Source: Tessaracoccus sp. MC1679
Lineage (GTDB): Bacteria; Actinomycetota; Actinomycetes; Propionibacteriales; Propionibacteriaceae
Reading direction: 5' to 3'
Assembly (NCBI RefSeq): GCF_014164775.1
Contig: NZ_JACJGB010000002.1
Span: forward strand, 310,001-374,000
DNA length: 64,000 bases
Made by a program: the position numbers and the translations under genes. The notes under the pieces were generated by a model. It did not search any database. It saw only the letters and a program-made list of their open reading frames with translations, and was not told where the DNA came from. Shown here piece after piece: positions 2,841 to 9,983 of this stretch; the stretch's first letter is position 1, and each line of letters opens with the position of its first letter.

Positions 2841-3182
2841 TCATTGCTCGCAGCTCGACACGAACTCCGCTACAGGCCCGAGCGCTCCTGCGCGGAGTTG
2901 GTAGTGCACCCAGCGGCCACGCTGGTCTCGTTCGAGAAGTCCGGATTCGACCAGCTTCTTGAGGTGGTGGGACAGGGTTGGCTGAGAGATGCCGAGTGCG
3001 TCGGGCAGGTGGCAGGCGCAGGCCGTGGTATCTGGGGAGTCTGCAACCAATCGGAGCAACCTGAGCCTGACTGGATCTGCGAGCACTTTGAGCACGGCGG
3101 CCAGCCGCTCCGCGTCGGTAGCCGACATGAGTGCGTCATTGCTGGCGGGAGCGCACTCGAGGAGGGGCAGGGTACGGATCAT
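2841..3182 (-). CDS. arsR: ArsR-family metalloid-responsive repressor
   Basis: A 113-residue winged-helix repressor. The recognition region I-S-Q-P-T-L-S-H-H-L-K-K-L lies near residues 67-80. The dyad Cys55-Ala-Cys57 directly before the DNA-binding helix corresponds to the As(III)-binding CxC of SmtB/ArsR proteins. The ATG overlaps the arsC stop by four bases (ATGA), so the two are translationally coupled; an internal Met at residue 19 is a possible alternative start. As last gene of the arsD-arsA-ylbF-ylbF-arsC-arsR run on the minus strand it would repress the operon until arsenite binds. Confidence 0.88.
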   Translation of the reverse strand: MIRTLPLLECAPASNDALMSATDAERLAAVLKVLADPVRLRLLRLVADSPDTTACACHLPDALGISQPTLSHHLKKLVESGLLERDQRGRWVHYQLRAGALGPVAEFVSSCEQ

Positions 3183-3724
3183 GTCGAGAGCTTTCTCGTA
3201 CTGCGTGCTGGTTCGTTGCGGCTGGAGGAGTTCGCCACCTGGCCCTGGAGCGGGTTCCCTCCGGTCATGCCCATCTCATCAAGGAGGTCGTGGACCCGCT
3301 CCGCGATGTCGTCTCGCATCAGCCGGACGCGATCTAGCCCCTCGATACCCTGATCTGCGGGGTCCGGGATGACCCAGGTGTCGATCGTTGCGCGCATGCC
3401 CTCGACGGCCTCCACACGGGCCTCGCTTCCAAGCACGATGATGCGGTCTGCGTCGGTCAGCATCTCTGGTTCGAGCCGGGTCGGAACCTGGTCGGACATG
3501 TCCGCGCCGAGTTCCGCGACCGCAGACGCGGACAGGTCGTGCACCTGCGCGTCCGGTGCAGTTCCTGCTGATCTGACGTTGACGCGCTCACCTGCGCCCT
3601 GCCGCATGATTGCGGCGGCGATCTGCGATTTGCCGGCGTTGTGGACGCACACGAAGAGGACGGTAGGCCTAGCCCGCTCAATGGGGGAAGGCTTCACCGA
3701 GGTGTCAGCGGCCGCGAGATCCAT
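3179..3724 (-). CDS. arsC: Arsenate reductase, LMW-phosphatase fold, C-X5-K type
   Basis: A 181-residue protein of the low-molecular-weight tyrosine phosphatase/arsenate reductase fold. It reduces As(V) to As(III). The catalytic loop is Cys26-V-H-N-A-G-Lys32-S-Q: the usual C-X5-R arginine is lysine. That feature is shared with the mycothiol/mycoredoxin-dependent arsenate reductases of Corynebacterium, and no resolving-cysteine pair is visible. A D-P-A-D segment near residue 116 provides the general acid. The chosen ATG (3724) follows GGGGAGGACC; the frame extends 19 codons further without a ribosome site. The C-terminus has an extra Ser/Arg-rich tail of about 25 residues after the fold. The gene lies downstream of a degenerate region and is coupled to arsR. 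Confidence 0.85.
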   Translation of the reverse strand: MDLAAADTSVKPSPIERARPTVLFVCVHNAGKSQIAAAIMRQGAGERVNVRSAGTAPDAQVHDLSASAVAELGADMSDQVPTRLEPEMLTDADRIIVLGSEARVEAVEGMRATIDTWVIPDPADQGIEGLDRVRLMRDDIAERVHDLLDEMGMTGGNPLQGQVANSSSRNEPARSTRKLST

Positions 3725-3817
3725 CAGGTCCTCCCCTTGCACATCGACGGCTATCGATACGAACCATACCCCCATTCGCAACCGACCAAAGAATGCCCGC
3801 AGCCCTGGGACAGCCTT

Positions 3818-3985
3818 CTAGGCCGGCTTCAGTGTCACGCTGGTGTCGTAGAAGCTGACGCTTCCCCCCACAGGGGCCGATCAGGCAGGTGTTCTTCAGG
3901 GTCGGGTCCGTCCACATCGCCGCGTTGGCGTGGACACCCTTGCGGCGCCGCTCCTCGCCCTCGACGACATGGCCGTTCGTGAACC
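3818..3985 (-). pseudogene. C-terminal remnant of a larger protein (possibly a molybdopterin oxidoreductase)
   Basis: Minus-strand translation gives a run beginning W-F-T-N-G-H-V-V-E-G-E-E-R-R-R-K-G-V, then M-W-T-D-P-T-L-K-N-T-C-L and, after a one-base frameshift near 3868, G-G-S-V-S-F-Y-D-T-S-V-T-L-K-P-A-stop. The two frames join smoothly into one plausible protein tail. The tail resembles the C-terminal cap of DMSO-reductase-family molybdopterin enzymes, but this is from memory of the family and not firm. It has no start and is followed at once by arsC. I infer that a gene was deleted from the ars operon here. Confidence 0.3.
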
Positions 3986-4007
3986 ACGAGGGCAGCGGTT
4001 GGCGAGT

Positions 4008-4379
4008 TCAGCAGCCGGAGGCTGGTGCGATCAGGCTCGGGTAGTCCGCGCCGAGTGCACCACTCACCTCACGAGCCACCGTGGGCAGGTAGGCCTTGAC
4101 GGCGTTGGTGGCCCGCAGGTGGTTCATGATGACCTCGTTGGCCCGGACCTTCTCCTGGCTGCGGCGCAGCTGGTTGACCTGTTCCTGGCTCGGTGGCAGT
4201 CCGGCCTGTTGCGTCCGTACGAGACTGGCCTGCGGGCCACGGAGGGCCATCATGGTCTGTTGCGCCTCAAGGTCGTCGGCCAAGGCGTCGGTTGCGGCCC
4301 GGTAGGCGGCTACGGCGGGGGCTTGGCGGAGTGCGCGGCCGAACGTCAGGGCAGCGTCGTGGAGATCGGGGGTCAGCAT
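4008..4379 (-). CDS. YlbF/YmcA-family small helical protein in arsenic operon (copy 1)
   Basis: A 123-residue, almost wholly helical protein matching the Com_YlbF family: A-A-L-T-F-G-R-A-L-R-Q-A-P-A-V-A-A-Y near the N-terminus and a second helix pair with A-N-E-V-I-M-N-H-L-R. In Bacillus, YlbF and YmcA form a complex with YaaT that carries Fe-S clusters and affects RNA processing; nothing comparable is established for this protein. It ends in S-G-C, a terminal cysteine that could bind a metalloid. The ATG at 4379 has GGAGAAG upstream. It lies 15 bases after the related copy 2 and shares the arsD-arsA transcript, so a role in arsenic handling is likely but unproven. Confidence 0.7.
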   Translation of the reverse strand: MLTPDLHDAALTFGRALRQAPAVAAYRAATDALADDLEAQQTMMALRGPQASLVRTQQAGLPPSQEQVNQLRRSQEKVRANEVIMNHLRATNAVKAYLPTVAREVSGALGADYPSLIAPASGC

Positions 4380-4394
4380 GATTGTCTTCTCCTG

Positions 4395-4796
4395 TCAGCC
4401 GCAGCAGCCGCCGGAGCGGCTGTTGGCGGCAAAGTCGATGCCGACCTCAGCGGTCACGACGGATGCCGTGTCGCGACACACATCCTGGAACGCTGACATG
4501 GCCGCCGCGTAGGCGGCAACCGTCGGGACGCTGAGCATCGCTTCCTGGCTGCGCTCCAGGTCCGCGCGGTGGGCGTCGGTCAGGACTCCCACCGTGATCT
4601 CCGCCCGAAACTCCTGCTGGAGTTGTTCGAACGCGGCAATTGCGGCGTTCGCCTCGGCGTCGGTGGAGACGGCCTCGTCGGCGGCCAGCAGGGCGGTGAA
4701 CTCGTTGCTGGACTTCAGCGCCGCACCGAACGCTCTAGCGGCGGCGTGCACCTCGGCTTCGGCGTCAGCCGGCGCCTGGAGGGTTGGATTCAGCAT
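4395..4796 (-). CDS. YlbF/YmcA-family small helical protein in arsenic operon (copy 2)
   Basis: A 133-residue helical protein related to the next gene. It has the same family pattern (A-A-R-A-F-G-A-A-L-K-S-S-N-E-F near residues 18-32; S-Q-E-A-M-L-S-V-P-T-V-A-A-Y further on) and a Gly/Cys tail S-G-G-C-C-G at the very C-terminus. The vicinal cysteines echo the C-terminal C-C of ArsD encoded two genes upstream. The start at 4796 is chosen for its GAGGAG ribosome site; the frame is open 76 codons further but overlaps arsA out of frame and has no family match. It probably arose with copy 1 by duplication. Confidence 0.7.
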   Translation of the reverse strand: MLNPTLQAPADAEAEVHAAARAFGAALKSSNEFTALLAADEAVSTDAEANAAIAAFEQLQQEFRAEITVGVLTDAHRADLERSQEAMLSVPTVAAYAAAMSAFQDVCRDTASVVTAEVGIDFAANSRSGGCCG

Positions 4797-4863
4797 GTGG
4801 TCAGGGCTCCTCGTGGTGGGTAGGTGTGATGCGGTCGAAGACTGGGCCGTGCGCCGTGGTTTC

Positions 4864-6615
4864 CTAGGAGGCCAGGCGGGCGAGCCGCTTGGGTCCGATG
4901 GGTTCCTCGTGCAGCAGGGGGACGATGGCGAGCCGCTTGGCGCGGGCCCGTACGGAGTCGACAGGTCCTTGTTCCTGGATTGCCCGGTGACGGAGCAGGG
5001 GTGATGTGGTGGTGGCGGCGGCAAGCGACTGGTTGATCACCCAGGCCCAGGGCTGGACGCCGGCCCGCTTCAGGTCGTCCTCGAGGATGCCCGCCTCGAG
5101 GACGGGCGTGGTCTCCGGCAGCGTGACGAGCAGGATCCTGGTGTAGTCGGGGTCCTGGAGTCGCATCATGGGGGTGGCGTAGTGGGCGCCTTCGGGCATG
5201 TTGCGGGCGATCTCGCGGTGATAGGAGCCGGCGGCGTCCATGAGCAGCAGGGTGTGGCCGGTGGGCGCGGTGTCCATCACGACGAACGTGCGACGCGCTT
5301 GGTTGACTAGTCGGGAGAACTGCTTGAAGACCGCGACCTCCTCGGTGCAGGGGGACAGCAGGTCCTCGGCCAAGAGGGCCCGGCCAGCCTCATCAAGGTC
5401 TTTGCCCTTGGTGGCCATGACGTGATCGCGGTACTCCTGGACTGCCTGAGCGGGATTGACCTGCGACATGGTGAGGGTGGGTAGCGCGTCACCTTCCCCC
5501 ATGGTGTGTGCCAGGTGCCCGGCAGGATCGGTGGTGGTGAGGTGGACCTCGTGGCCCAACTCGGCGAGGCGGGTGGCGACCGCCGCGGCGATGGTGGTCT
5601 TCCCGACGCCGCCCTTGCCCATGCACATGATGAGCCCATGCCCGGGGGCGGCAAGGTCGTCGACCATGTCGTTCAACGAGGGGGCGATGTCCTCACGCAA
5701 GTAGCTGACTGAGTCCATCGGAAGCGTCGTTGAGCCGTCGAACAATGACCGGAGCGCGGCGAGGCCGACCATGTTGTCGGGCTTGAGTTCGATGACATCG
5801 CGAGGGACCCCCGCCAACGAGGCCGGCATGTCGGCGACGGCGGCCTGCTCCCGTTCCCGGATGGCGACGACCAGGCTGTCGTCGGCTCCAGCGGTATCGG
5901 GGAGCACCCCGTTGATCACCACGTTGCTGGGCTTGATGCCGGTCTCGCTCAGTTCCTCGGCGGTCCGGGCGAGCTCGGCAAGGCTGGAGGCCTGCGCCCT
6001 GGCGACCAGCACCAGGCGGGTGACCGAAGGATCGGCCAGTGCCGTCACCGCTCCGCCGTAGAGGGTGCGTTGCTTCTCCAGTCCGGACAGGGGGCCCAGG
6101 CAGGAGGCGTCACCCTTGCCTGTGTCGAGGAAGCCGGTCCAGTCGCCGGGCAGCTTCAGGAGCCGGATGGTGTGACCGGTGGGGGCGGTGTCGAACAGGA
6201 CGTGGTCGTAGTCGGCGACCAGCGTCGGGTCGGCCAGCAGTCCGGTGAACTCGTTGAACGATGCGATCTCGGTGGTGCATGATCCGGACAGCTGTTCGGT
6301 CATCTCGGCGATCTCACGTGCGGGCAGGAAGGCTCGAACGGGGCCGATGATTCGCTCACGGTAGTCGGCGGCGGCCTGTTCGGGGTCGATCTCCAGGGCG
6401 TCCAGGCCGGGGACCGACGTCACTGCCGTGATGGTGTTGCCGATCGTCTGGCCGAAAACCTGACCGACGTTGGACGCCGGGTCGGTGCTCACCAGAAGCA
6501 CGCGACGTCCGGCTTCGGCGAGCTGCACCGCCGAGGCGCACGCGATCGAGGTCTTGCCCACGCCGCCCTTGCCGGTGAAGAAGAGGAAGCGCGTGGGACT
6601 GCTGAGGAATTTCAT
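4864..6615 (-). CDS. arsA: ArsA arsenite-stimulated ATPase
   Basis: A 583-residue tandem-duplicated ATPase. It has two P-loops of sequence G-K-G-G-V-G-K-T (residues about 15-22 and 332-339) and two signature motifs D-T-A-P-T-G-H-T, one per half. Each half also has a conserved cysteine in the metalloid site region (G-S-C-T-T-E-I and S-P-C-T-E-E-V). Length and layout equal the classical ArsA that energises the arsenite efflux pore ArsB/Acr3. The ATG at 6615 lies 10 bases after the arsD stop. No ArsB or Acr3 permease gene is visible in this window, so its membrane partner must be elsewhere or missing. Confidence 0.93.
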   Translation of the reverse strand: MKFLSSPTRFLFFTGKGGVGKTSIACASAVQLAEAGRRVLLVSTDPASNVGQVFGQTIGNTITAVTSVPGLDALEIDPEQAAADYRERIIGPVRAFLPAREIAEMTEQLSGSCTTEIASFNEFTGLLADPTLVADYDHVLFDTAPTGHTIRLLKLPGDWTGFLDTGKGDASCLGPLSGLEKQRTLYGGAVTALADPSVTRLVLVARAQASSLAELARTAEELSETGIKPSNVVINGVLPDTAGADDSLVVAIREREQAAVADMPASLAGVPRDVIELKPDNMVGLAALRSLFDGSTTLPMDSVSYLREDIAPSLNDMVDDLAAPGHGLIMCMGKGGVGKTTIAAAVATRLAELGHEVHLTTTDPAGHLAHTMGEGDALPTLTMSQVNPAQAVQEYRDHVMATKGKDLDEAGRALLAEDLLSPCTEEVAVFKQFSRLVNQARRTFVVMDTAPTGHTLLLMDAAGSYHREIARNMPEGAHYATPMMRLQDPDYTRILLVTLPETTPVLEAGILEDDLKRAGVQPWAWVINQSLAAATTTSPLLRHRAIQEQGPVDSVRARAKRLAIVPLLHEEPIGPKRLARLAS

Positions 6616-6625
6616 GTCCACAGCC

Positions 6626-7003
6626 TCAGCAACCGCCGCCGCCGCAGCAGGAGCCGCCACCCACGGTGGCCAAGCTGAAACGCGGACGAAGAGTGGGTGT
6701 GCCAAGGCCCGCGTAGCGGGCGAGCATCTCACGCGTGGGGTAACTGCCGGTCAGCACGGTCACGTCGTCAACCAGGACCAGGGGAAGCCCCTCCGATCCG
6801 GCCGCCTGAAGGAAGCTCATCACCGCTGGGCTCTCCACGAACGCCGTCGGGTCGTTGGCCAGGTTGTGCCGGGTGATGTCGACGCCCTGTTGCTTCACGT
6901 AGTCCAGGTCGGCGGAGAAGTTCACCAACGCCTGGTCCACGTCCTCACCACACACCCCGGTGTTGCAGCACAACGCTGGCTCGAAAACTCGGATATTGAC
7001 CAT
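6626..7003 (-). CDS. arsD: ArsD arsenite metallochaperone
   Basis: A 125-residue thioredoxin-fold chaperone that hands As(III) to ArsA and also represses weakly. The three N-terminal ligands Cys12, Cys13 and Cys18 (A-L-C-C-N-T-G-V-C-G) are exactly placed as in the E. coli protein. The C-terminus carries Cys119-Cys120 and Cys125 in a Gly-rich tail. The ATG at 7003 follows GAGAGGAAA; a start 7 codons upstream lacks this. It is first gene of the ars operon. The roughly 100-base gap upstream abuts the nagA fragment and must hold the promoter. Confidence 0.93.
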   Translation of the reverse strand: MVNIRVFEPALCCNTGVCGEDVDQALVNFSADLDYVKQQGVDITRHNLANDPTAFVESPAVMSFLQAAGSEGLPLVLVDDVTVLTGSYPTREMLARYAGLGTPTLRPRFSLATVGGGSCCGGGGC

Positions 7004-7102
7004 GATTTCCTCTCGAAGACACATCGAAGACCGTCGATGTGAACTCTAGCCTAGTCGAATCGATGGAAGTCAATCTGGCGGGGGTGCCATGCCGGTGGGC
7101 GG

Positions 7103-7810
7103 CTACTGCCAGGTTCCGCCGTACATGACCCTGGTGACGTTCGCGTCGTCGTCGAGGGCGACCAGGTCGGCTCTGGCTCCTGCTGCGACTCTTCCGACGT
7201 TGTGGAGGTTGAGGGTACTCGGCGGGAAGGATGGTGGCGCTGCGGACCGCTTGGGCAAGCGGGATTCCGTAGGCGACGGCGTTGCGTACCGCCCTGTCGA
7301 GGGTGAGGGTGCTGCCGGCGATGGTGTCGAGTCCGGTCAGTCGAGCCACCCGATCGCTGACCTCGACCGGCAGAGCGCCCAGCTGGTAATCGCCGTCCGG
7401 GGCCCCGGCGGCCGCCATGGCATCGGTGATCAGGACGACCCGGTTCGGCAGCAGGCGCATCGGGTAGGCCGCCAGTGCGGGACTCACGTGGATGCCATCG
7501 AAGATCAACTCGACCGTGGTCCGCGAGTCGTCCAGGAACGCCAGGATCGGCCCAGGGTCGCGGTGGCCCAGCGGTGACATCGCGCTGAAGATGTGGGTGA
7601 CCCCTGTAGCGCCCACCTCGATGGCGGCCTTGGTGATGTTGTAGCTGGCGGCGGTATGACCGATGGCCGGAAGGCAACCGTTGGCGAGCAACACCTGAAT
7701 CGCATCCATGGCGCCCGGGAGTTCCGGTGCGATGGTCGCCATACTGATGGTGCCGCCGGCGGCGGCGAGTAAGGCGGCGACGGCGTCGGGGATCGGATCG
7801 GCCAGCAACT
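7103..7810 (-). pseudogene. nagA fragment (N-acetylglucosamine-6-phosphate deacetylase), frameshifted
   Basis: Minus-strand translation matches the middle and C-terminal part of NagA: I-G-H-T-A-A-S-Y, T-H-I-F-S-A-M-S-P, V-L-I-T-D-A-M-A-A-A-G and I-A-G-S-T-L-T-L. After a one-base shift near 7219 it continues L-N-L-H-N-V-G-R-V-A-A-G-A-R-A-D-L-V-A to a stop at 7103. The N-terminal third with the HxH metal ligands is missing. At about 7811 the frame runs without a stop into the N-terminus of a tyrosine integrase. The product cannot be an active deacetylase. Confidence 0.8.
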
Positions 7811-8030
7811 CTCCTCTCCCGAACACGTCCGCCGGGGTCACCGCAACCACCGGCTTCCCCACGACGCCGAAGAAGACCTTCAGGTCATACCAGGCAGCAA
7901 GCACAGAGTTCGGGCGCACCCGAGCCACCAGGAACTCCAGATAGGCATCCAGCAACGGGTCACCGAAGCTGCCCGGCGGCGCCCCCGTCACCCGATCAGC
8001 AGCAGGGAGCAAACACGGCAACAGCGACAT
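7811..8030 (-). pseudogene. N-terminal domain of a tyrosine recombinase, truncated
   Basis: About 73 residues resemble the SAM-like N-terminal core-binding domain of phage-type integrases: D-P-L-L-D-A-Y-L-E-F-L-V-A-R-V-R-P-N-S-V-L, Y-D-L-K-V-F-F, V-T-P-A-D-V-F. The catalytic domain is absent because the sequence passes directly into the nagA fragment in the same frame. Together they form one chimeric open frame that begins about 8030-8045 and crosses the nagA frameshift. This is probably a deletion scar. Confidence 0.65.
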
Positions 8031-8045
8031 TGAGGGCACCTCCAC

Positions 8046-8804: not shown

Positions 8805-9983
8805 GTGTTCGTTCGCCATGGCGGTCTGCGCCGCCCCCTGTTCCTCACCGTTCTTGTGATGGCCGCCTTGACGCTGACTGCCTGTGGGCAGGATGCACCG
8901 GCTGCTGGTTCGGCTGCGCCGTTGAGCAGTGCCGCCGCTACGCAGAGCGATGAGGGCGCTGCCGGTGAGGGAGGCGCCGGATCCCAAGAACCGATGGCGA
9001 TCCGGGGCACGGTGTGGGTTGCCAGCGAGGACGGTGATTCCTTGTCGGCTATCGACGCGGACACAGGTGTCGTGGTGACCACGGTGAGCGGGATCGAGAG
9101 TCCTCACAATGTTCAGGTGAGCCCTGATGGGGGCACGGTCTGGGCTGTGAGTGGTCACGCCAACGCTGTGGTGGCGCTGGATGCCGCGACGTATGAGCTG
9201 TTGGGGACCGCTCCGACCGGTGTGAACCCTGCGCATGTGGTCGTTAGTCCTGATGGTGAGCAGGTCCTTGTCACGAACTCGGGGGATGACACGCTGAGCG
9301 TCTACGACGCCGAGTCGCTGGAGCTCCGGGCCACCGTTGACCTCAGTGCCGGGCCGCACGGCCTGCGTCCCACCCCGGACGGTGCGGCGGTGGTCGTGGC
9401 CAACACCACAGCGGGCACTGTCGACGTGGTCGACACTGACACCTATGAAGTCACCGCGACGATCCCGGTCGGGGACTCCCCTCCGCAGGTCGCTGTCGCA
9501 CCGGACGGGCGGTACGCCTACGTGAGCCTGGTCGGGTCCAGTTCTGTGGTGAAGGTCGACCTGGTGGAGCAGAAGGTCACGGGATCGGTGTCGGTTCCGT
9601 CGCCGCCGGTCCAGCTGTACCTGACCGCGGACGGGACCCGCCTGCTGTCGGCCGACCAGGGAACCGAGGGCGCCCCTGGCAGTACCGTGTCCGTGATCGA
9701 CCCGGCCTCCATGACCATCGAGGACACCATCGCCGCGGGGGCTGGCCCGCACGGGGTGGTTATCGAACCGACCGGGCAGCGGGCCTGGGTGACCAACCTC
9801 TATGACGACACCGTCTCCGTGATCGACCTGTCGACCAACCAGACCGTCTCGACTGTGTCTGTGGGCGACAAGCCAAACGGCATCAGCTACAGCCCGCAAC
9901 CGCCTACGCCCGGACCCGCCACTACCAGCGTCACCGTCCCCGACTACGCCACCGGAGCCGAGGGCGGCCACGCGGAGCACTGA
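8805..9983 (+). CDS. YVTN beta-propeller lipoprotein
   Basis: A 392-residue exported protein. The signal peptide ends in the lipobox L-T-A-C27, so it should be lipid-anchored on the outer face of the membrane. After a low-complexity Ala/Gly linker come repeated blades of the YVTN/YncE type, each with V-S-P-D-G or similar turns (Q-V-S-P-D-G-G-T-V, V-V-S-P-D-G-E-Q-V, V-A-P-D-G-R-Y-A-Y-V). The propeller typically binds ligands or other proteins; no catalytic residues are evident. GTG start with AGGAGAA upstream. Its promoter carries the same tandem repeat as the copper genes, so it is probably induced by copper or the same envelope stress. The substrate is unknown. Confidence 0.8.
   Translation: MFVRHGGLRRPLFLTVLVMAALTLTACGQDAPAAGSAAPLSSAAATQSDEGAAGEGGAGSQEPMAIRGTVWVASEDGDSLSAIDADTGVVVTTVSGIESPHNVQVSPDGGTVWAVSGHANAVVALDAATYELLGTAPTGVNPAHVVVSPDGEQVLVTNSGDDTLSVYDAESLELRATVDLSAGPHGLRPTPDGAAVVVANTTAGTVDVVDTDTYEVTATIPVGDSPPQVAVAPDGRYAYVSLVGSSSVVKVDLVEQKVTGSVSVPSPPVQLYLTADGTRLLSADQGTEGAPGSTVSVIDPASMTIEDTIAAGAGPHGVVIEPTGQRAWVTNLYDDTVSVIDLSTNQTVSTVSVGDKPNGISYSPQPPTPGPATTSVTVPDYATGAEGGHAEH

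Follow-up and report, generated by a model that had tools for sequence, protein, structure and literature searches.

Loading of the ATPase ArsA with arsenite is usually treated as the work of a complete donor-acceptor pair formed by ArsD and ArsA. The N-terminal ArsD cysteines Cys12, Cys13 and Cys18 are reported to transfer As(III) to ArsA (PMC12607644), and three cysteines of the Escherichia coli ArsA, C113, C172 and C422, are reported to be important (PMC2963123). The YlbF family is linked to RNA processing: in Bacillus subtilis, the ligands of a [4Fe-4S] cluster are reported to be C134 and C146 of RicF (YlbF), C141 at the C-terminus of RicA (YmcA) and C167 of RicT, the three proteins of the RicAFT complex or Y-complex (PMC6751060). 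A third point of comparison is found in haloarchaea, for which NCBIfam names two proteins, HcsL (NF041416) and HcsS (NF041415), "halo-CC-star" with no function attached, and plasmid annotation puts both of their genes behind arsA. Here we describe two adjacent genes, ylbF2 and ylbF1, that encode YlbF-family proteins with cysteine tails within an arsD-arsA operon of Tessaracoccus sp. MC1679. They lie in a stretch of 64,000 nucleotides (contig NZ_JACJGB010000002.1, positions 310,001 to 374,000), hereafter the window. The cysteine-tailed pair probably helps ArsA to catch or receive arsenite.

No paper on a linkage between YlbF and ArsA was found in the open-access literature, nor was the name halo-CC-star; the open-access text checked that touches on YlbF and arsenic makes no link between the two, and the main text of a paper on Com_YlbF proteins in Staphylococcus aureus (PMC12445100) does not contain the words arsenic, arsenite, metal or cysteine.

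The YlbF pair and its linkage to arsA

On the minus strand of the window, the genes follow in the order arsD, arsA, ylbF2, ylbF1, a gene of the low-molecular-weight protein tyrosine phosphatase (LMW-PTP) family and arsR, with 10 bases between arsD and arsA, 67 between arsA and ylbF2, and 15 between ylbF2 and ylbF1. The arsD gene (6626..7003, minus strand) encodes an As(III) metallochaperone (PF06953, 136.8 bits against a cut-off of 27; NF033727, 124.3 against 90) that has the N-terminal CC....C at residues 12, 13 and 18 and a glycine-rich C-terminus, GGGSCCGGGGC. The arsA gene (4864..6615, minus strand) encodes a two-domain arsenical pump-driving ATPase that has both a score above the family cut-off (NCBIfam TIGR04291, 809 bits against 650) and the metalloid cysteines, since a listing of its cysteines puts Cys113, Cys172 and Cys423 at the positions of E. 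coli C113, C172 and C422. The HcsL-like ylbF2 (4395..4796, minus strand; 133 aa, tail SRSGGCCG) and ylbF1 (4008..4379, minus strand; 123 aa, ending in APASGC, with the terminal cysteine as its sole cysteine) both encode Com_YlbF proteins (PF06133, 54.0 and 51.7 bits, respectively, against a gathering cut-off of 23.9). The start of ylbF2 at 4796 was picked by alignment with relatives, as the frame stays open further upstream. An earlier note, made from the sequence alone, had described this cysteine-tailed pair in an arsD-arsA operon, and its coordinates, tails and family are as it said.

The predicted model of YlbF2 (pLDDT 82) is a helical bundle that looks soluble. When it was compared with known structures (VIA-align), the top six rows were all YlbF-family chains (Z 8.0-10.4, rmsd 3.5-8.9), including RicF of the RicA-RicF complex, RicA, YmcA and YheA. 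Because helical bundles reach middling Z values easily, the fold assignment leans on the match of a profile of 12 sequences to 2oee (E 2e-11); taken together with the model, it places YlbF2 in the helical fold of the RicF/YmcA/YheA type. The cysteine tails of the pair are not background: after setting aside the 7 calls of the ars region from the 73 rough gene calls in the window, a cysteine within the final four residues occurs in only one of the 66 others and CC within the final six in none of them, with cysteine making up 0.9% of residues.

Our bacterial whole-genome searches covered Actinomycetota, and haloarchaea were covered through plasmids. Within the family of the window, Propionibacteriaceae, the HcsL profile matches 4 of 198 genomes, each with two adjacent copies, and all four pairs adjoin arsA and arsD. 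In a draw of 396 genomes from the phylum, eight match: the genome of the window, a second one with a pair (G348) and six with a single match. Among these six, G226 has a full arsA and G472 a weak arsA-like match, each on another contig, and the remaining four have no arsA at E 1e-30. Three of 66 genomes in the class of G348 match (G348, G600 and G617), all with pairs. In all seven actinobacterial genomes with a YlbF pair, which represent two classes, the pair thus stands beside arsA, with arsD readable in six, and no Com_YlbF protein besides the pair was found at E 0.01 in the five pair genomes searched (those other than G600 and G617). The gene order varies. The pair is collinear with arsDA in the window and in loci L012 and L013. 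In L011, L116 and L117, arsR heads the pair, and the run diverges from arsDA; these divergent cases include G600 and G617, with the order arsR-ylbF2-ylbF1. In G348 (locus L093), arsA lies upstream of arsR, ylbF2 and ylbF1 on the same strand, and the contig stops inside arsA. The tblastn searches with proteins P0001 and P0002 against plasmids, and with P0002 against viral contigs, gave no match, and a near-identity search of plasmids returned nothing but arsA pieces at 71-75%.

The tails are conserved in the form of two cysteines on one protein and one on the other. In all seven actinobacterial copies, the window included, the last residue of YlbF1 is a cysteine, with no further cysteine in six of them, and YlbF2 has two tail cysteines, as CC in five copies and as C-x4-C in two (L116 and L117); a glycine follows the CC in 5 of the 7 YlbF2 proteins. 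The last cysteine is one of only 7 invariant columns out of 136 in an alignment of all 14 YlbF1 and YlbF2 proteins. The earlier note had named a lack of conserved linkage or tails among the findings that would refute it; both are kept in the two actinobacterial classes and in haloarchaea.

In the haloarchaeal search, tblastn with the HcsL of pNRC100 gave hits in 24 plasmid records; every one is haloarchaeal, and nine reach at least 99%. The order arsD-arsA-hcsL-hcsS is present in all 14 loci that were read (13 annotated, and the unannotated L106 with the same frames), with arsA overlapping hcsL and hcsL overlapping hcsS in the 13 annotated ones; for each of the other 10 regions, hcsL, hcsS and arsA are listed as overlapping or adjoining the match. 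All 14 HcsL proteins read terminate in GGGCC, and HcsS ends in CC in every one of the 13 annotated loci, the L106 frame having a single C at its end. On pNRC100, whose cluster has been described as arsADRC (PMC3600143), hcsL and hcsS lie directly behind arsA. Haloarchaeal HcsL aligns almost end to end with a profile built from YlbF2 relatives (E 2.6e-17), the GGCC included. HcsS (59-74 aa) matches the C-terminal third of YlbF profiles alone (hhalign probabilities 54-91%) and therefore looks like a shortened YlbF, although Pfam recognizes neither of the two HcsS proteins scanned.

HcsL and the YlbF2 of the window have in common the Com_YlbF family, a C-terminal CC, which in YlbF2 is followed by one glycine, and a gene directly downstream of arsA in an arsD-arsA operon. 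The bacterial and haloarchaeal systems differ in the second protein, which in bacteria is a full-length YlbF with one terminal cysteine and in haloarchaea is short with CC. The scores also set the two apart. Against the curated HcsL cut-off of 140 bits, YlbF2 scores 61.5 and YlbF1 28.7 (bacterial range 23.9-65.5), and against the HcsS cut-off of 55 bits YlbF2 scores 11.9, with YlbF1 unlisted at E values up to 1; judged from these profile scores, the bacterial pair is not filed under HcsL or HcsS. The newness that the earlier note saw in a metalloid role is in part forestalled by HcsL and HcsS, which NCBIfam names without a function and which are annotated behind arsA on haloarchaeal plasmids.

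A tree of 26 rows resolves HcsL, YlbF2 and YlbF1 as three groups with modest to good support. Sequences from both classes occur in the YlbF1 group as well as in the YlbF2 group (82/86 and 85/81; bootstrap 86% and 87%), and the pair therefore seems to have travelled together. This gives modest support to an old duplicated pair that was kept together while the surrounding gene order changed. The four arsA genes of Propionibacteriaceae form one group (SH-aLRT 97, by a quick method); identity to the window ArsA is 34-35% for haloarchaeal proteins and 48% for the G348 piece.

Possible ligands and partners of the tails

Building on the family and fold class, the linkage, the co-inheritance of the paralogues, the 2+1 cysteines conserved in the bacterial pairs and the metalloid cysteines of ArsA, we propose by analogy with RicA and RicF that a YlbF heterodimer may bind As(III) with its 2+1 tail cysteines and pass it to ArsA, a proposal that we put slightly short of an even chance. 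YlbF1 and YlbF2 would pair up in the way of their relatives RicA and RicF, and a three-thiolate site for As(III) (or Sb(III)) would arise from both tail cysteines of YlbF2 and the terminal cysteine of YlbF1. The dimer would dock on ArsA and, in parallel with ArsD or following it, hand the metalloid to the Cys113/Cys172/Cys423 site. HcsL and the shortened HcsS would play the same part in haloarchaea. We prefer an As(III) site in an ArsA-docking heterodimer because the 2+1 layout comes with no RicT gene seen in the cluster, and three thiolates suit trivalent arsenic.

ArsD offers a further comparison, being likewise a small operon-encoded ArsA partner with vicinal cysteines. ArsD has a thioredoxin-like fold. 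It differs from the YlbF proteins in having no family match in common with them, and it is itself already present in the same operon. The earlier note had drawn an As(III) path over three cysteine tails, those of the two YlbF proteins and that of ArsD. The YlbF tails and their linkage to arsA are kept, but the ArsD tail is not: of the six actinobacterial loci with a readable ArsD, three have it (the window, L012 and L013) and three lack it (L011, L116 and L117), as do all 14 haloarchaeal loci read. A chain of three tails that includes ArsD was accordingly rejected as a conserved feature. The N-terminal CC..C of ArsD is present while its C-terminal tail varies, and we count the loci that keep the YlbF pair while the ArsD tail is lost in favour of the proposed heterodimer. 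Tails of the ArsD type are ordinary, as 26 of the best-scoring 30 arsA loci have a cysteine-tailed frame, presumably arsD, just upstream; in three of the four others, the rough caller called no separate gene there.

Several explanations other than As(III) transfer have to be weighed. A cysteine tail in a YlbF protein is not peculiar to arsenic, as RicF and RicA are reported to use theirs, in a 2+1 pattern, for a [4Fe-4S] cluster (PMC6751060), and these nearest experimentally studied relatives share with the ars pair the family, the fold, the two paralogues and the 2+1 layout of the tail cysteines. The tails might thus hold an Fe-S cluster as in RicA-RicF-RicT, which would sense redox or arsenite damage and regulate ArsA or the ars mRNA. 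PSP1/RicT-like proteins with two CGRxxCC motifs are encoded in three of five pair genomes. On the other hand, the ars pair differs from RicF and RicA in being linked to arsA and arsD, and its cluster shows no RicT-like gene. A search for PSP1 at E 0.01 came up empty in two genomes that have the pair, G146 (99% complete) and G348 (97%). As(III) also tends to damage Fe-S clusters. The CC found in 5 of 7 copies would moreover be an unusual ligand pair and fits Fe-S poorly, because, according to the account of the RicAFT cluster, adjacent cysteines are not documented as joint ligands of an Fe-S cluster, except perhaps in N2 of complex I (PMC6751060). Together with the scaffold discussed next, an Fe-S cluster at the tails is the main alternative, but we consider it unlikely.

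The linkage would also fit a pair that scaffolds or regulates ArsA, be it as a subunit, a co-chaperone or a link to a membrane partner, and whose tails touch ArsA and not the metalloid. No ACR3 match was found in the four Propionibacteriaceae pair genomes, G348 has only a 96-bit piece at a contig end, a novel transporter has been proposed for Halobacterium, in which arsB is reported to be without a role (PMC3600143), and three loci, L013, L116 and L117, have an ArsP_1 permease gene close to the pair, with a thioredoxin-like gene adjoining it (the latter confirmed by scan only in L116 and L117). However, many arsA genomes of the family lack ACR3 (39 of 56), five of the 13 annotated haloarchaeal loci have an ACR3 annotation next to the haloarchaeal counterpart of the pair, and ArsB-family proteins (PF02040) above the Pfam cut-off are encoded away from the pair in three of five genomes (107.7 bits in G146, 95.8 and 82.1 in G148, and a partial match of 26.0 in the genome of the window), so that an ordinary efflux partner is possible. 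The soluble-looking model of YlbF2 also counts against this reading, and we regard a scaffold as improbable. The idea that the pair replaces ACR3 found no support: of 56 arsA genomes, 17 have ACR3 and 4 have the pair (Fisher p = 0.30; the arsA and ACR3 searches each sampled 195 genomes of the family). Tails like those of the pair, which are short stretches of Gly/Ser that carry CC or C, can bind As(III) well. The pair could therefore be a cytosolic sponge that buffers or sequesters arsenite without contact with ArsA, and its co-regulation with the rest of the ars cluster is plausible; yet a bacterial pair has three tail cysteines and no more, and the linkage tracks arsA through several gene orders and two domains of life, for which reason we hold a sponge to be very unlikely.

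Other observations weigh against the transfer of As(III) by a YlbF heterodimer. The PSP1/RicT-like proteins mentioned above, which make an Fe-S complex of the RicAFT kind conceivable in the three genomes concerned, include one in the genome of the window, the YlbF2 proteins of L116 and L117 have C-x4-C instead of CC, and HcsS has two to three tail cysteines, which brings the haloarchaeal total to four or five, not three. Single YlbF genes unlinked to arsA (f28, another actinobacterial family; L014-L017) have cysteine-rich ends in three of four cases, with the motif GCxCxH; cysteine tails are thus an old trait of the YlbF family, and the tails alone are no argument for arsenic. The two-paralogue history has modest support, as a previous tree built from a different set of rows, which included PDB chains, did not separate the groups in this way: it weakly joined the YlbF1 and YlbF2 of Propionibacteriaceae (83/71) and left the G348 YlbF1 unplaced. 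The heterodimer, the As(III) ligand, the docking on ArsA and the direction of transfer are steps that we infer, and our confidence in the proposal stands just under the midpoint.

Among the four close copies, furthermore, the tails may owe some of their conservation to the RNA. The last nine codons of ylbF2, which overlap the CCG tail codons, show no base difference among the four copies from Propionibacteriaceae; with the stop codon, they are predicted to fold into a hairpin that has a UCCG loop and lies immediately ahead of the ylbF1 start (4395..4424, minus strand; present once in the window). No other identical run in the four aligned genes is longer than five codons, and of the 620 remaining columns with an invariant amino acid, Met and Trp excepted, 205 also share the codon; the naive product for a nine-codon identity is about 1e-4, a value that ignores relatedness and codon bias. 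The hairpin is a possible element of mRNA processing or coupling. Since the tail of pNRC100 uses other codons, and that of G348 shares the last codons and not the hairpin, the conservation of the tail at the protein level stands without it.

Regulatory sequences and neighbouring genes

Two sites are likely ArsR operators, judged from their pattern. The leader of arsD contains an 8-bp inverted repeat, CACATCGA-N6-TCGATGTG (7020..7041, minus strand; inverted-repeat scan), to which ArsR would bind, and a pattern scan found an operator-like sequence with 5-bp arms, TATCGATAGCCGTCGATG, upstream of arsC (3742..3759, minus strand), where there is no inverted repeat of 6 bp or more. The upstream regions of arsD and arsC have ATCGA/TCGAT half-sites in common, and similar ones were seen by eye upstream of arsD in L011-L013. 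In Rfam, two sub-threshold matches were taken as chance; the promoter scan found none, and one terminator-like site was counted, fewer than in shuffled sequences.

The arsR gene (2841..3182, minus strand) encodes an ArsR/SmtB regulator (NF033788, 80.8 bits against 55). The arsC-like gene (3179..3724, minus strand) encodes a protein of the LMW-PTP family (PF01451, 58.3 bits against 23.2) that is a candidate arsenate reductase, although it scores far under the NCBIfam cut-offs for arsenate reductases (best 49.3 against 157.6). Between ylbF1 and arsC, the strip 3725-4007 (minus strand) may hold a frame-broken small gene, with KNTCLIGPCGG and SVSFYDTSVTLKPA in two frames; nothing alike was seen in L011 or L012, to which the comparison was limited, no family search having been made. 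Adjoining arsD, positions 6945-8045 (minus strand) were judged by eye to be a broken N-acetylglucosamine-6-phosphate deacetylase-like gene, and an amidohydrolase gene (PF01979; L013, 5008-6123) occupies the same place relative to arsD in L013. A transposase gene of the Mutator family (PF00872; 10301-11611, plus strand) lies close to the ars cluster. As for possible membrane proteins at other loci, ArsP_1 is present in four of five pair genomes, and the permease near the pair, with its thioredoxin-like neighbour, is a candidate membrane partner in L013 (3476-4890), L116 (1960-3531) and L117 (10982-12416); in G348, a small frame with a likely membrane helix by eye lies between arsA and arsR (L093, about 9370-9662, plus strand).

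Implications for arsenite handling and the YlbF family

In summary, the YlbF pair may represent a second, YlbF-based As(III) metallochaperone of bacteria and archaea, in which the 2+1 layout of RicF and RicA has been turned into a metalloid site that loads ArsA; this broader reading we advance with some reserve, as rather less than an even prospect. If it is true, ArsA and ArsD would be joined by third and fourth components conserved in two domains of life, and the loading of ArsA with As(III) would sometimes be more elaborate than the donor-acceptor pair suggests. There may also be a bearing on the unexplained arsenite export of Halobacterium NRC-1, in which arsB is reported to be without a role (PMC3600143). 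The YlbF family would gain a function outside RNA processing, and the pair would provide a clean test case for the choice between Fe-S and As(III) by a cysteine-tail site. The RicAF architecture would then be a general builder of cysteine-tail metal sites, and not merely a part of the RNA-processing machinery.

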